Source: Gamsiella multidivaricata
Taxonomy: Eukaryota > Mortierellomycota > Mortierellomycetes > Mortierellales > Mortierellaceae
Reading direction: 5' to 3'
Length of the DNA: 64,000 bases
NCBI RefSeq assembly: GCF_025024155.1
Contig: NW_026251765.1
Span: forward strand, 1-64,000
Shown here: piece by piece, positions 1-64,000 of the stretch
How the letters are laid out: each line of letters begins with the position of its first letter
Numbering within the stretch: the first letter of the stretch is position 1
Program-made: the position numbers and the translations under genes
Notes under the pieces: model-generated
Seen by the model: the letters and a program-made list of their open reading frames with translations, nothing else
What the model was told of the DNA's origin: nothing
Database searches by the model: none

Positions 1-2766
1 AAAGCAAATCGACGCGAGATATATCTTGTTCCGGACAGTGGAAATGTTACCTTGTTCACAATGAACTTGGGCAGTCTCTGGAAATGCTCCCGAACCGCGG
101 TCCGGACCTCCACCGCCAGTTCCGCCTGGATGACGCTCAGGGGTATATCTTGGCAGTCCTTTGTCGGTGCGCAATCTGAAAGAACGCTCAGGAAATCGTC
201 ATAAATCGAGCGCGCAATTGTTTTCGCCTGAATTGCCGCCGAGTCTTTAGGTGGTCTCCCGCGGGGCGCTACTGGACCATTCAGAATCAAAGAGATCAGA
301 TTTTTGATGATAGTTTCTCCATGTGCCTTGTGCAGAATGAGATCAAGTGTGTCCGCGTCCTTTTCCTCCTTGTGCTGGACTTTCGGAGCACTCGCTTGAT
401 TGACATCAGTGCCCAAGTTCTGGTCTGGTGCCGGGCGCGCTTGATCTGAATTGGATATGGTGGTAGTGCTGAACTCCTTGTAGAGAAAAAGTTCGAGCGC
501 TTTAAACACGAGAATACGAGTTTGGCTCATGATGCGGACCGCCTCGCTGATGCGTTCCGCGACGATCTTGGTCTGGACTACGTTCAGCTTCGTGGAGCGG
601 TGCAGGCACCCTGTAATCGACCCTGCAGTCATTGTGGCAGTCTTGAAAGCCTCCCCGAACAGGTGCTTAGTCAGGTTAGCTCCAGCTTGCCTCTCCACTT
701 TTTCACCATTCTCCTCGTCCACCTTGGGCTTCGTCTTGGTTTCACTCGCGGCCTTAGGATTGTCATCTATGCTCCCGTCCTTCTTCTTCCGCGGGCGCGG
801 TTCCTCGATGGACATCTTTTCCAATGCGATCTTGTCGACCGGGCATGACTGGCTGACGTCCATGACAACATGAGGGGAATAACGAGGGTTGGCATCTCCG
901 TCCCTGCTCTTGTACCTAAGGGACAATCCCAAAAATTAAAAAAAAAAAAAAAAAAAAAAATATCAATAAGATGATTGTACCAAAGCGACAAAGCTGTAAA
1001 AGGTCGTAATGAATTTGAACTCACTAACAAAGTCATACGATAATCATACCTGCTTCGTCTCCATTTTGCCTCCCGGACTTTCTTACGTCTTTCTTTGCCT
1101 TTGGAACGTCGCTTTCTCCGTTGCTGGGCGTTCTCTTTCTTGTGTCTGCGGCGACGGCGTCGGGCCTGAAGAATCGTCTGCTGTCCAGGCGTCTGCAGGC
1201 TGTATTGGATAGGGGAAGAAAACACCACGCCTGCAGAAGTGTCGCTGGCGAGTGTGTCGGCTGGAGGATTTGTCCGCGAGGCTCGAGTCATATTTCTCCT
1301 TTGCAGCTTGCACTTCTCGAGCTTCTGGAGTATGCCCCGTATTTCCTCGTGGGTCGCGCACGATGGCGTAGCGGAGTCAAGATAGTCCTCACGCACTTGA
1401 ACGAAAGCCGAAATGGCGTGGGTGTAGTCGTCCACACTCTTGTTTTGTCCTCCTCTCGCCCGTTGTAAATACTCCTGGATCAGCTCCTTGATAATACCAG
1501 CCTCAGTCGTCTTGGATCCTGGCGCGTCCATGGTCGATCCATCGCCTGCTCTGGTCTCGATCCTCATCTCTTGGATGATCTTGATATTTCTTTGGAAGCC
1601 GTGCCACGGGAGTGCCTTGGAGTAGTCGTTCTTAGTAATGATTGATGCCAGCAACAGCTCACGGTCACATACGAGGTCTAGAGACTCGAGCAGGTCAGCC
1701 TTCTTGTACGTGGTGAACGCTCGGTACTTTCCGACGGGTATAGTGATTTCTCTAACGTCTTGATATACCATCATATCACTGTCGGCGGTAATGATTGCGA
1801 GGTCGTCTTTGTTGTTATCAGCTTGATACAACTCAGCAATGTGCGTGTCTGCTTGGAAGGGACATTCGCAGGTGTGCCACTCCAAGGTCTCCAGCCCATT
1901 TCTTATGTCTGCCAACGCTGCCTTGGATGTCTTGTACGCGTTTCGACATTGCTTGTATAGGGGGCCCAAAGAGCCGCTGTTTCTTCCTATGGCGTTGTCA
2001 ACTCGCACCTCCAGAGTCTTGATCCGGTTGCTGAGGGATATGGCCCGATCTTGTAGCTCCTGGGACTTTTGTATCGAGGCCTTTCCGTCAAAGTGTAGAG
2101 CCGTGGTTGATTTGCTAAAGTGCTTTGACATAATTTTGTTGAGGTCGTGCGCTATATAGCCGTAATTCTGTGACTAGAGATGAGGCAGGATCGAAGGATG
2201 AAACAACAGAACATGTGTCAGCACTTGGTTGCTATGCTGCGCAAGCTGATACGAAACCATTGGGACATTTAATTACCTGCTCTGTTATTCCAAGTCGGTC
2301 TGGTGTCAATCGTCCGTTAAGGCCAATGAACAGCGCAGGATGTTGCGTCCCGGCAGCCTATATCTCGCTCGCATAACTAGGGCATGCCTTTCCTCGCTTG
2401 GATGGAGCCTCGGAGAAACTCAGGGCGCGCTTCTTAATGTTGCTTCTCCTGCTAGTGCCGGCGTCTGCAGCAGAAGGCGTGTTTTGCGGTGTTGAGGCTG
2501 TGGAGACTGCGGGGGGCTGTGGGCATTGCGAGAAAGGTCGTCGTTTCTGTTAGAACGGAAGCCGCTGATGCGCTGGTAGTTGTCGTAGCCGTTGCCTCAG
2601 CTCTCGCTTCCTTGGCGAGTCTTTTACACGTCACTTTGAAGGTCCTTGTTTGCAAGAATCCAAAGTACAGACTCAAGACATCGACATGAACTTTCTTGCT
2701 CTGCAGATCATAAGCTAGCGTTCCTTCGGTGTCTTTTATAGCTTTGGGTAGTCCAGTGACTCCCAT
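1..2766 (-). CDS. XPG/FEN1-like nuclease domain joined to Fanzor-like N-terminal region (partial)
   Basis: The 5' part of a minus-strand gene whose 3' end lies beyond base 1. Tentative exons are 2635-2766, 2378-2546, 1050-2151 and 51-915; the donor near 2377 is weak. The start at 2766 gives MGVTGL, the classic FEN1/XPG N-terminus, then VHVDVLSLYF (first metal Asp). Exon 3 holds LHFDGKASIQKSQE (the FDGK motif) and ITADSDMMVY (XPG-I paired Asp). The usual Glu pair of XPG-I appears as Gln and Asp in PFQADTH. A very basic linker (about 1060-1190), probably a nuclear localisation signal, follows. The last exon has RILVFKALELFLYKEF and EVRTAVREHFQRLPKFIVNK, which resemble the N-terminal helical part of Fanzor/TnpB proteins. 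The XPG assignment is firm; the Fanzor assignment is inferred from remembered family patterns. No RuvC motif is visible because the gene leaves the window. All visible exons are open. Confidence 0.65.
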
Positions 2767-3531
2767 CTGGTACGATAAAGGCCAAGTCAAAGTAGACAGT
2801 TAATGAGGATCAAATTTGGTACATGTATCCATTTGCAGAAACATTCAAGACTCACGTTAAGAATATGCGACAGTGCTTGAGGGCTGATAGGGGAGTGGAT
2901 GAGGAAAGGAGTGGGGTCAAGGATGTGCGGAATGATGTTTCTTTTAAGGCCCCGAAATCTACGTCCAAAATGTGTGTATGTTCATGCACTATGCTATAGA
3001 AATTGCAGTGTTCACATTCACTATTGATTATTTCATTCGTATCTTGCAGTGATTGATCAGTGTTCTCATAAACCACCTAGACTGGGGCGGCGAAAAACTG
3101 CTGTAAGATAATGTATTTCGCGTCAGGAGTGGGCCGACGAGAAAATAATGGCGCCATAGGCTTCTGGACTGTAATGAAGGCCTTATTCAGTCGAGAGGAA
3201 TCTGCTAAATCACATGATTTAGCCCAAAAGTAAGGCTGCTCTCTTCAACTGCTTGCGAAAGGGGGGAGTAAGCATACCAGTTGCTCAATTACAGTTGCGC
3301 GCTTTCTTTCCCCACAAACAAGTCTCCTTTTCCCTCTCTCTCTTTTCCTCTCTCCTTCCTTTTCTATTCACCCGCCTTCTCACAACTGCAGATTACAAAT
3401 GGCCCATCATTCCAGATACATATGCGCCTGTGTATACTAAAAGAACGCACATAGTATCTAACACGTATGGCATGGCATTGACTCTGGTGAACATACGACA
3501 CGCAATAAAATTATTTTACCAAACTGTGAAC
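2767..3531. other. Intergenic, 5' flank of the XPG-Fanzor gene
   Basis: About 760 bp between the start of the XPG-Fanzor-type gene and the left end of the piggyBac element. Only short shadow reading frames are present, without recognisable domains. No RNA gene was seen. The promoter of the minus-strand gene should lie at its left side. Confidence 0.5.
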
Positions 3532-3570
3532 TATCCCTTACTCTGACGACGTGGCGGGCAAATTTGCCCG
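3532..3570 (+). repeat. Left terminal inverted repeat of piggyBac element with 16-bp palindrome
   Basis: The terminal 14 bp (3532-3545) match the inverted right end. A self-complementary CGGGCAAATTTGCCCG lies at 3555-3570, about ten bases inside. Palindromic subterminal repeats are plausible transposase-binding sites (inference). Confidence 0.85.
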
Positions 3571-3621
3571 GCAAAAATAAAATTTCCCTGTGCAACAGTC
3601 ATGTAAATTATTCGAAGTTTT

Positions 3622-6230
3622 TTACTCCAGGTCTGTGGATTGTGTGTGATATTCTTTGAAACAAGGTCTGGCGCCATTGCTACACAAGGGAACCTTGCAT
3701 ACTTGGCACCGGATATTGCTTTGGAAGGGGTTCTTCTGGCTCATGTAGATCTGCTTGGTTTGGTATTTCCAAGAACGCAGCATGTAGGTTCCTCGATGCT
3801 TTCGGGTCACTGGAAAGTGGTTGTCATCGGTGAATCGGTCATTGGGGAGTTCAAAGTTCTTTGTTACTCGAGGTCGTTTCCAGACAGTGTCATCCTCGTT
3901 CTCGTCTTCCTTCTCCACAGCATTGTGGCGCCATGCCTTGCTTGAGGTATGGGCCGAATCGATTAACCCCCAGATAAGAGAGCTGGAAACTCTTTGTGCG
4001 TGAGAAGGGATCCTTTTTTCGGGCTATGAGATAGGTGTTGATAATAATCGTATTGTGGTATAGTAAATGAGAATCAATCGGTTGGTCTTACAAAGTTAAT
4101 ACTAGATCGCAGGGAAGAGCACCGCCCCCAGAATAAAAGAATAAACGGTCTGGTACCTGAACCAGAGTCTTTTTTCCACCTAAATCATTTGTATCACACA
4201 TTGTATTCGTCCAGATTGTCCGGATAACACCGCAACAACGACAGGTACTGACTACCACCGTCAGTAACCCATGCAACGAAATACAATCAACAGGGAATGC
4301 CGATCCTGATCATTTGCCACCTTTGCACCGTCAATCGCTCTTATTTAGACATTGTACTTGCCCCGTAGCGCTTCCCCGATCACCGATCGTCTCATTGAGC
4401 ATCCGTCATCGGCCCACCCTCGTGAAACGGCATTATAAAGATACAACGGAGGCCTGATCAGCGACTATTGGCATACAACGACTCCAGAGGGGTGGACTTC
4501 ATTGTCACGACTCCTCACCTCATCGGACATCACAATATGCGAACTCCTTGCAATTACCCCAGTCATTCCCAAAGGAATATAGTCCTAGCTCGTACCATTT
4601 AGCTAAACAGGTCCCATATTTATTCCTTTCCATTTACGTCTAGTCTATTTTACCTTTGTGTTCTTACATTCCGATCTAAAGGAGGACCCTGCACCACGAA
4701 CCAGTAAGTGACCGAAGCACACCCTTGCCGAAGTCCTATTCGCGTGGTAACTCCTGTTGTAAATAGAACTAATGGTAGAAATTATAGAACCCGTTAGTAG
4801 ACCCCCTACACCGCAGTATCCAAGAGCCAGAAAAAAGTTGGCATCCAGTTCCGCCGCGTTGTCTGCTGCGTGCTGTAGTAGGATCGAAGTTGATTGGCAA
4901 TATCAACTCCACCCATATTGTAGTTGTAATCATCGATGACTTTCAGGATCTTGAGTTCCTTCCTGGGAGAGTTGCCAAAAATTGCTCGCACCTTTGCTCC
5001 GTTTGTACTTGTTTCTCGTGGTCGGCGCCGTTCTCGAAGGACCTCCCATTCCGCACCTGCAATCCCGTGAATCGTTGTCATCATCGTCACCGGTCCATTA
5101 TCCTGCCAGAAAACGACCAGTACTCCTCCAACCACAACTCCAGACCGAGTATCCCAATCCAACTTGGTGCCCTTTTCTACCTGAAGCTCCTTCGGAACTC
5201 CTCCTTGCTTCCTTGCTGTCCCACAAGCTCCAATATTTTGGTTCCTGAGGCGCTGAAAAAGATTGACGCTGGTGAAGTAGTTGTCCATGAACACCCGATA
5301 ATGGGAAGCCTTTGGGAGCTGTTGGACGAGATGATTGATTGTGGATCCTGTCTGAATGAGTCCTGGTATCTTCTCGACTCGAGCTGGTGTCATCCTTGAG
5401 GTTGGAACAAAAGCATAGGTGTATCCTGCATCACATAGGGAAAAGATCTTGAATCCCTCGGGTGTTAGCTTGCTCTTCATCCGAACAGTATGTGCGCTCC
5501 GTCCTGAGAACTTAATCGTCATCTCGTCAACAGAGACGTTTGATGCAGGTATACAGTATCGTTTTGAGGCCACGCGGATTTGAGAGAGTAGTGGCTCCAG
5601 CTTGCCACAATACTCCTCTATTACGGCGTCTGGTGCACACACATGGATATATCGCTTGATCTGCTCGTAACGGACTTGATACATGCATCTTGATATGTGG
5701 TGTGTTGGCGCCTCACGGTTGGTATTCCAGATAGCGACGTATGAGCTCAATTGATAAAGCCCAATGTAGATGGTAATCGCGATCCAGGTGACGAGCTCGT
5801 TCATAGTGATGTTTTTCCAGGCGCGACCGGAAGATCCAGCTTGCTTGTTTTCTGCATAGAGATTGGTATTCGTAACGATCGTCTCCAGTGTCTTGTCCGT
5901 GAAGAAGAATCGAAAGAGGGTGATTGGGGGTGGTACTACGCCATCGAATATCCCATCTAGGTTGACGTTGGCACGACGGTATCCTTGAATCAAAGGCTCA
6001 AACTCTGGAGGTACCGGTAGCTCGATCGCCTGCTTCTTTTTCCCTTTTCCTTTTTCCGTCGCAGGCGCTGGCACAGTTTGGCACTCCTCCTCTTGATCCT
6101 GCTCCTCCTGTTCTTGGAAAGACTCGTCTGTCTGCGTTCGTATCTCTAGAATAGGTATAAACTCTTCTTCGTCCACCGTCTCGCGCCCTCCGATCACTGA
6201 CATTTGGCAGAGATGCTCATGACCATTCAT
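3622..6230 (-). CDS. piggyBac transposase (DDE_Tnp_1_7 family)
   Basis: Proposed exons 4810-6230 and 3622-3982 are in phase and give about 593 residues, typical for the family. Start ATG at 6230. The acidic N-terminal region is followed by the DDE catalytic domain. The conserved acidic residues sit in NVSVDEMTIKFSG, YRVFMDNYFTS and DDYNYNMGGVD. Exon 2 contributes LIWGLIDS, then FELPNDRF and a C-terminal cysteine-rich segment ending CQVCKVPLCS and CFKEYH. In relatives this segment starts with a further Cys pair after RG; here it reads RGTYMLRSW, so half of the zinc-binding set seems lost. If the 827-bp intron (donor GTAGGG, acceptor TTTCCAG) is not spliced, a TAG at 4806-4808 ends the protein early. 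Identity as a transposase is secure; activity is uncertain. Confidence 0.85.
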
Positions 6231-6418
6231 AGGTAAACAGAGGGATGATTTAATGATTTAATGCGACGATGACTTAATGCGATTGATGAAAATGAGGATG
6301 ATGTTTCCGCGACATTAACGTAATTTTGTCTGCTCTTTCGATCGAGCTTAAAGACCAGGGAGGGGTGGCTTAACAGGATTTTGAGATAAAACGAAAAAAC
6401 GCTGTCATTTTATTTTAA

Positions 6419-6454
6419 CCGGGCAAATTTGCCCGGTATACAGAGTAAGGGATA
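6419..6454 (-). repeat. Right terminal inverted repeat of piggyBac element with 18-bp palindrome
   Basis: Bases 6441-6454 mirror the left end. Bases 6419-6436 form the perfect palindrome CCGGGCAAATTTGCCCGG, one base pair longer on each side than the left copy. Confidence 0.85.
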
Positions 6455-62559: not shown

Positions 62560-64000
62560 TTAAAGCGTCGTTATTGTTGATGTTGTTGTTTTGTCGACAA
62601 GCTTGGCCCTTTCATAGTCAAGAGGAGTGGGCCACTGCCCATTGCGGAGAAACTGCAACACAGCGTTGGACATATTCGTGGCAGCGTTGTGGTCCCGGTC
62701 GCGCTCCCACTTGCACTCGTCGCAGATTACCGACCGGCCCCGGACTCTCATCCGAAAGTGGCACGAACAGCAAAAAATCGACGTCCGGAACTCTGGGATC
62801 TTGACCAACTCGATCACCACTGGTGTCTTCTTGTTCCTTGCCAAGTCCTTAACGAGATCCCGAGTCTAGTAATGCCAGGAGAAGCCAAAATATTAGAATC
62901 ATTCAATTGCCACCCGCTTCTCTCAGAAATGTCTTCAATGCTTGCCTGTCGTATTAAGTTCCTGGTAAACTTGCTGCCGCCGTGGCTCTGACCTTTCCAA
63001 CCACGGAAATCACCATCACCTAGCCCGATCACGAGTGGCGACTGCAGAAAGGCATTACGCTTGTCGTCCGGCAGAGTATTCAAATTCAGAAATCCTCATT
63101 CGAAGAGAGATCTGGCGATCTTCTTCCGACGCCTCGTCAACGACTTGGAATTTAGGAGCGTTTTGCGTTCAATCTCCGGTCGCTTATTTACCTCGTCCAT
63201 GAGTCGCAGATATGGCCCCCAATCGTATTCTTTTACATTCGGCAATCCATCGAAAAATGCCATGGAACCCTTGATATCGTCATCAAGATGGTGGAGCACA
63301 TCCGCGAGATCCTTGTCTGATAGTTGCCGCTCGGGGACATGCTTCCGTATCTGTAGGATCGCGGTTGTAGCTTTATCAAGGTCATGCCGCAGGGCCTCTC
63401 TATAGTCGTACTTGTCTTGCTTGAACCTAGCGCCGCCATAAAAGGATCGGAGAGTCGACGCCTTTTTTGCTACATTGACGAGATGGACCTTGACAGCAGA
63501 CTCGTAGTCCTGCATCGCCTTTTCCACGGCCTTGGTAATCGGCGTTATTGTATCTTGGCTGTTGCTGGTGATCACTGAATCACCTTCCATAATAACGTCC
63601 GAGTCACCAACAACCAACTTGGCTTCGACGGGCTTTTGTTGCACGAGCCTATCTTCGATTTCCGTTATCCCCGCATCGATCTTTATACGGCTCTGTTGTT
63701 TGCGGTATCTCCGGTCGATATCATCCCGTGGGCCGCGGGAGATGTTCAGGTTGATATTTTCCTTTTCATAGCTAGAGTGAATAAGGGCAGCAGTGGCGGT
63801 ACTGGCAATCCCGGGGTCTACACAAAGACTCCGTATTCCAACCTCGTCGTTTGTATTTCGGAGGAGACTGTCGACTTTCTCTGGCTGTCAAATTTTTTGG
63901 ATACATACGACCATCCTTGTATCATTGGCACGGTTGACCAGGGGAAGACTGTGTTGAAGACTGTGTTGGATGTTGGTACTGGGGGTGATATTGATGAAGC
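62560..64000 (-). pseudogene. Fanzor (eukaryotic TnpB-like) gene, RuvC and zinc-ribbon half, with in-frame stops
   Basis: A minus-strand gene entering from the right edge. The RuvC-I block reads IRSLCVDPGIASTATAAL (about 63785-63842) and is followed by a helical insert. Then come a glycine-rich VIGLGDGDFRGW (about 62990-63035), the zinc ribbon FCCSCHF and VICDECKW, and RuvC-III DRDHNAATNM (about 62670-62700), ending LVDKTTTSTITTL at 62560. Family members are RNA-guided DNA nucleases related to bacterial TnpB. Two TGA codons interrupt the same frame, at 63888-63890 upstream of RuvC-I and at 63096-63098 before NTLPDD, and the join to the zinc-ribbon part (about 62840-62900) needs a frame change or an intron that I could not phase. 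This points to a decaying copy, although unrecognised introns remain possible. Confidence 0.75.

Follow-up and report, generated by a model that had tools for sequence, protein, structure and literature searches.

The first 64 kb of contig NW_026251765.1 (C134) from the 37.5 Mb genome of the fungus Gamsiella multidivaricata, here called the window, raises the question of whether one gene can encode two nucleases. A sequence-only reading of this stretch had proposed that a gene at its edge joins an XPG/FEN1-like flap nuclease and a Fanzor-type RNA-guided nuclease in a single polypeptide. Considering that this gene runs downwards from position 2766 on the minus strand and that the contig begins at base 1, it is cut off before its end. 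The proposal of one polypeptide, XPG/FEN1-type part first and Fanzor part second, is borne out by paralogues, deposited proteins, profile matches to solved structures and predicted folds. With considerable confidence, the gene is interpreted as a truncated and decayed copy of a multi-copy mobile-element gene, whose predicted product comprises a FEN1/EXO1/XPG-family nuclease, a basic linker and a Fanzor1 protein.

The truncated gene and its relatives

All exons and introns of the window copy lie on the minus strand. Exon 1 (2277..2766), which is decayed in this copy, specifies the XPG/FEN1 N-terminus from MGVTGL to KKVHVDVLS, and is followed by a phase 0 intron of 103 nt (2174..2276, GTAATT..CTCTAG). 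Exon 2 (1050..2173) completes the XPG N and I regions with the motifs FDGK, QADTHIAEL, ITADSD and KNDY, and further encodes the XPG C-terminal part and a strongly basic linker (approximately 1050-1162). Next come a phase 2 intron of 134 nt (916..1049, GTATGA..CCTTAG), exon 3 (51..915), encoding the end of the linker and the N-terminal (REC/WED side) region of Fanzor1, and the start of a third intron (1..50, GTAACA), which reaches the contig end. The motifs named by the sequence-only reading were recovered where it had placed them, namely MGVTGL at the ATG (2766), VHVD, FDGK and ITADSD, the basic linker, and both RILVFKALELFLYKEF and EVRTAVREHFQ within 51-915. Its claim that the exons follow one another in frame holds for exons 2 and 3, which when spliced across the GT..AG intron form one stop-free open frame of 663 codons, and fails for exon 1 of the window copy.

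Gene models were obtained with a codon and splice-site script, starting at ATGGG and using a raised intron penalty, as a low penalty over-spliced the paralogue L033 (contig C108). The exon borders predicted in L033 with the raised penalty (1268-1756, 1860-2983 and 3116-3980) correspond to those of the window; for L042 the script yielded no model, and in L033 it bridged a stop near position 4240 with a doubtful intron. The RuvC domain and zinc ribbon, at which the window copy stops short, are visible only in paralogues such as L033, which runs on from the matching exons into additional open frames that carry GVDPGE, followed by DEYLTSSKCPSC and LDRDCVGAQN; the DPG/RuvC block anticipated downstream is thus present in relatives. 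In L054, a single open frame of 1,136 aa in six predicted exons extends from MGIRGL to the zinc ribbon.

Exon 2 of the window matches the profile of its own subfamily (xB) at 4.3e-81. It also aligns with residues 156-438 of P0048 from Modicella reniformis (40% identity, 2e-68), while exon 3 aligns with residues 497-762 of the same protein (32% identity, 1e-42), and because these matches occur in successive order the resemblance exceeds chance. Separate Pfam scans of the window exons found nothing for the exon 1 piece or for exon 3 and, for exon 2, only a sub-threshold 5'-3' exonuclease match (0.045).

In the genome, the Fanzor-side exon of the window has at least 32 matches, its own included, and the zinc-ribbon family Cas12f1-like_TNB (TNB) at least 109. 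After C13:553160, which covers the XPG end only, and duplicate rows of loci had been left out, 44 matches to the XPG part were counted, which group into 40 loci; this set leans towards relatives of the fused proteins, because two of the genome searches used fused-protein queries. In 27 of the 40 loci a zinc ribbon follows on the same strand at a distance of 2.5-4.4 kb; among the controls, one pair has the upstream arrangement on one strand and two pairs have their members on opposite strands. The 13 unpaired loci include the window itself and four loci retrieved by the Pfam search only (C1:551887, two on C102, and C16), which resemble the host's own repair genes of the XPG family; in two of them (L002 and L003) motifs like those of FEN1 and EXO1 can be read. 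A further six (C1:1021900, C44, C46, C57, C97 and C118+) have Fanzor-side matches downstream, and those on C113 and C177 have matches to the Fanzor N-terminal exon only. Conversely, ten loci picked by their zinc ribbon (L043-L052) include eight with an XPG match, L046 and L052 being without one. Pfam gave no match for the L033 model, which stops before the zinc ribbon, and found XPG_I (4.1e-4) and TNB (2.6e-3) in the L040 model, both under the curated cut-offs. As a side observation, L051 carries a lone XPG N-terminal piece (4722-5072) a few hundred bases before its zinc ribbon and is perhaps an internally deleted copy.

Three protein searches, each confined to the approximately 8,000 candidates with the greatest word overlap with the query, retrieved 46, 2 and 2 deposited relatives, the third with L054 as query. 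Both parts occur in one chain in 33 of these 50 proteins, with the XPG part first in every one of the 33, while 13 carry the Fanzor part only and four the XPG part only, several relatives being named partial by their source; the domain profiles were built partly from the same 50 proteins, so that their support depends on them. Precomputed Pfam annotation lists both XPG_I and TNB for P0005, P0006 and P0024, and a Pfam scan of 19 of the 50 (E<=0.01) found TNB in 16 and XPG_I in 12, with no match for P0048. Near full-length fused proteins measure 1,121-1,358 aa. According to source names, the nearest deposited relatives are from Mortierella-type fungi; Modicella belongs to the Mortierellaceae by taxonomy look-up, and the other genera are presumably of similar placement. 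One relative, P0016, bears the label Apophysomyces (Mucorales), represents the Fanzor side only and derives from a 2-kb contig, which may reflect wider spread or contamination. A scan of viral contigs with P0021 produced 551 pattern matches, none of which encodes a relative.

By profile, both ends of the protein match solved structures. Predicted models of relatives contain the Fanzor fold (REC/WED, RuvC and zinc ribbon), with PpFz1 as top structural match, and the fused proteins contain the FEN1-family profile and, in predicted structure, its fold. The sequence-only reading had made its proposal dependent on a TnpB-like fold in the exon 3 region: residues 376-571 of P0049, which align to window exon 3, fall within the part superposing on Fanzors, and in relatives the Fanzor fold extends over the region that corresponds to the exon's second half.

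Active sites, subfamilies and element ends

Residues were counted in an alignment of 19 proteins, using only rows with a letter at the column concerned. At the seven metal-binding acidic positions of FEN1, the expected residue occurs at D34 in 10/12 rows (P0048 has Lys and P0004 Pro), D86 in 16/16, E158 in 15/17, D179 in 15/17, D181 in 17/17 and D233 in 18/18, with E160 present as Asp in 17/17. The C-terminal Fanzor1 motif (Bao and Jurka: D..[TS][TS]-XX-C4 zinc finger-RD) is likewise retained, with the RuvC-I Asp in 19/19, the T of TS in 16/16, the R in 15/17, the RuvC-III Asp in 17/17, and the four zinc Cys in 16/16, 16/17, 18/18 and 15/17. At the relocated position of the RuvC-II Glu, which precedes the first CxxC by six residues with the spacing seen in EYYTSKKC, 14 of 16 rows have Glu and 2 have Lys.

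Subfamilies were assigned by best profile, fragments being scored exon by exon. Subfamily A contains L038-L042, L053, L055, P0002 from Entomortierella parvispora and other deposited proteins; subfamily B the window copy, L033-L037, P0048 and P0049; and subfamily C L049, L054 and P0050. The RuvC-I motif is DPG in subfamilies B (L033, P0048, P0049) and C (L054, P0050), and DAG, DGG or DLG in subfamily A. Scored on the profiles of the other two subfamilies, the XPG parts reach 36-154 bits, above the host XPG-type loci (at most 29 bits for L001, the other three being unlisted at E<=10), which suggests that the fusion arose once. For the XPG region of subfamily A, the ratio of nonsynonymous to synonymous substitution rates (dN/dS) is 0.22-0.29 in the 4 of 21 pairs for which it could be computed, 17 pairs being saturated and two of the four having dS >2. 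L055 and its relatives form a recently spread subfamily-A element, copies of which share one end (CGTTGGAGCATTAAAAACGCACCAAC..) and whose matches are often cut short, two of three checked cuts being contig ends. Matches ending at many different 5' points had first hinted at spread resembling that of a long interspersed nuclear element, an idea that was dropped because, among three copies fetched, L057 and L058 end at contig ends and L059 does not.

In L033, 74 bases follow the predicted stop and end in TAAGGGATA, an end kept in the 10 copies read, beyond which the sequence differs between copies. The last 55 bases of L033 are predicted to fold into a closing stem and a 9-bp hairpin (-19.8 kcal/mol, z -3.58). 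The hairpin pattern recurs in 9/10 copies and the two-helix minimum-energy fold in 7/10; when L065, the tenth copy, is set aside, the eight distinct sequences that remain have 98.3% of cells paired, and all changes are one-sided. Fanzor1 guide RNAs are described, in passages of PMC10711439, as located at element right ends, with the terminal repeats in the scaffold.

Upstream of the XPG-Fanzor gene and on the same strand, the window carries an open reading frame for a piggyBac-type transposase (4809..6257, DDE_Tnp_1_7 8.1e-55), which spans 483 aa as compared to 623 aa in C113, its C-terminal end being cut by a repeat of approximately 760 bp (4054..4815). This repeat is absent at the matching place in C113 and has 28 further copies of 89-96% identity among the matches listed. 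One piggyBac-like inverted-repeat end (3532..3583) adjoins the XPG-Fanzor unit and has its partner at 6407..6454 (TATCCCTTACTCTG..). Such a transposase stands beside an XPG-Fanzor unit twice (window 3532-6454 and C113:54594-56042), and deleted piggyBac remnants were noted at C108 and C19. The piggyBac inverted repeat and the XPG-Fanzor unit both end in TAAGGGATA, and it is plausible that the two units move together. The Fanzor unit was also considered as piggyBac cargo with a target duplication; the ends are shared, no clear target-site duplication was found in the C108 flanks, and this reading is kept as a candidate.

The window also includes a second, different Fanzor-type gene (62563-63887, minus strand, running on in L069) with the motifs VDPG, E-FRTSIF-CCSC and RDHNAATN.

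Possible roles of the XPG part and the alternatives

A number of observations weigh against an intact, jointly acting two-nuclease protein. In exon 1 of the window copy, a C-run aligned at 2516 is six bases long, one more than the five of L033 and L034. Read in the frame matching L033, the exon then has a TAG (2358-2360) in place of a Gln codon of L033; the window copy is thus decayed besides being truncated, and decay is also seen in other copies. For subfamily B, dN/dS is 0.30-0.85 in exon 2 and 0.60-1.07 in exon 3 (10 pairs each), reaching 0.85 and 1.07 for the window versus L033, and therefore indicates weak selection; taken with subfamily A, these ratios suggest past selection on the XPG part followed by recent drift. 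The predicted model for the window subfamily is weak (mean predicted local distance difference test score 54.8), and no XPG row is present among the best 50 matches listed in either structure search, the modelled P0049 being without the XPG N-terminal half. In the subfamily B sequences read, the first I-region Glu (E158 of FEN1) is Gln, a change that spans genera (window exon 2, L033, P0048 and P0049), and two of the 19 proteins (P0013 and P0017) combine Gly at D179 with Lys at the RuvC Glu. The 3' hairpin has no Rfam match and no two-sided compensatory change in the eight distinct sequences. For the second Fanzor, the sequence assembled as far as C134:66800 contains nothing that matches an XPG profile (E<=1). 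Finally, introns separate the XPG and Fanzor parts in the copies read, a single mRNA being what we infer from them; the alignment column closest to a shared start Met for a separate Fanzor, within the linker's MKQ block, holds Met in 8/19 rows and Ala in 7/19; and Fanzor-only models starting from this residue were produced by the script under both settings for L038 and under one of the two for L040.

For the fused protein, a mechanism may be envisaged in which the Fanzor part would bind a guide RNA made from the 3' end of the element, with flanking DNA as guide, and cut the matching site. The XPG part tethered to it would next work on the R-loop or the break, resecting 5' ends as EXO1 does or trimming 5' flaps, and so steer repair from simple end joining to recombination, by which the cut site would receive a copy of the element. 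The sequence-only reading had itself suggested that the flap nuclease could process the ends made by the RuvC domain or the guide RNA precursor. A single transcript, an active XPG part and a guide RNA are what we infer here, and end processing by the XPG part at an RNA-guided break is put forward tentatively, at somewhat less than an even chance. The same tentative weight is given to the broader picture of a natural two-nuclease RNA-guided effector, a single protein that would both cut as a Fanzor and process 5' ends in the manner of FEN1/EXO1, within a homing-like element amplified in Mortierella-type fungi that would make its own programmed break and start its own resection. If both halves are active, cutter and end processor would reside on a single guide-directed chain; this would bear on the persistence and spread of eukaryotic Fanzor elements, since an RNA-guided break aids the element only if repair copies the element back, and would provide a model from nature for editing tools designed to favour recombination during repair. 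As one genome holds Fanzors with an XPG module and one without a visible XPG part, a direct comparison is possible.

Rather less probable, and on balance unlikely, is a role of the XPG module mainly in DNA or RNA binding or as a scaffold, its nuclease weak or lost, by which it would hold R-loop junctions or recruit repair factors. The Gln at the E158 position in P0048, P0049 and the window copy is consistent with such a role, as are the Gly at D179 (2/17 rows) and an Asn at the D181 position of L054, whereas the counts for the acidic positions from D86 to D233 given above and the low dN/dS of the computable subfamily-A pairs argue for a retained nuclease. Slightly less likely again, the XPG module could act on RNA or RNA-DNA hybrids, in guide RNA maturation or in R-loop clearance after cutting. 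Enzymes of the FEN1 family cleave 5' single strands at junctions, and guide-RNA-like 3' ends directly follow the gene, both of which accord with this role; the window Fanzor without a visible XPG part, in contrast, suggests that not every Fanzor here requires one.

That an XPG-like gene and an adjoining Fanzor gene travel together and were misjoined by gene prediction is very improbable. Every join is a predicted splice, and the linker Met and the Fanzor-only models of L038 and L040 led us to weight this explanation slightly up and the single-protein identity slightly down. It nevertheless ranks below a fused protein because the order of parts is constant in all 33 deposited proteins and across three subfamilies and the linker blocks between them align across relatives; moreover, the linker Met is replaced by Ala in seven rows, the 19-protein alignment contains no start Met for a separate Fanzor common to all, and a short in-frame GT..AG intron marks the border in the window and L033. 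Chance resemblance of the Fanzor-like region in an ordinary XPG-family protein, to which the missing Pfam match of exon 3 alone might point, is practically negligible, given the 33 deposited proteins with both parts and the superposition of the exon 3-aligned part of P0049 on Fanzors.

Comparison with known systems

In keyword searches of open-licence main texts, no description of a Fanzor-XPG/FEN1 pairing was found, which is not proof that none exists; the words 'flap' and 'Rad2' are absent from the available text of PMC10432273, PMC10711439 and PMC3627910, and 'flap' from that of PMC11423790.

With FEN1, EXO1 and XPG (Rad2 family), the window-type XPG part shares the MG-type N-terminus, the acidic residues of the N and I regions, the NDY region and the fold, yet differs in being fused to an RNA-guided nuclease. 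TnpB of IS605/IS607, which is prokaryotic and not known to carry an XPG part, is alike as a RuvC-type RNA-guided nuclease on a mobile element; passages of PMC10711439 describe it as such, with its RNA at the right end. The likeness to piggyBac elements consists of the DDE_Tnp_1_7 transposase that precedes the gene on its own strand, both in the window and in C113, and of the shared TAAGGGATA end; the difference is that no clear target-site duplication was seen in the C108 flanks.

PpFz1 of Parasitella, an early-diverging fungus, has an extra domain on Fanzor1, named FRI (described in part of PMC11423790), and in this respect resembles the fused proteins; FRI, however, is a cyclophilin-binding insertion of approximately 100 residues inside RuvC and not an N-terminal nuclease. 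There is further agreement with Fanzor1 itself (SpuFz1, GtFz1 and PpFz1), using family features given in parts of PMC10711439 and PMC3627910: the REC/WED, RuvC and zinc-ribbon fold, the RuvC Asp, the relocated Glu, the TS-xx-C4 zinc finger and RD, transposon-like carrier elements, and, where the element stops, a 3' end predicted to form an RNA-like structure. The fused proteins differ from Fanzor1 in the D-A/G/L-G that replaces DPG at RuvC-I in subfamily A, in a length of 1,121-1,358 aa, outside the 600-700 aa of most Fz1 proteins (according to part of PMC11423790), and in the FEN1-family nuclease and basic linker placed in front.
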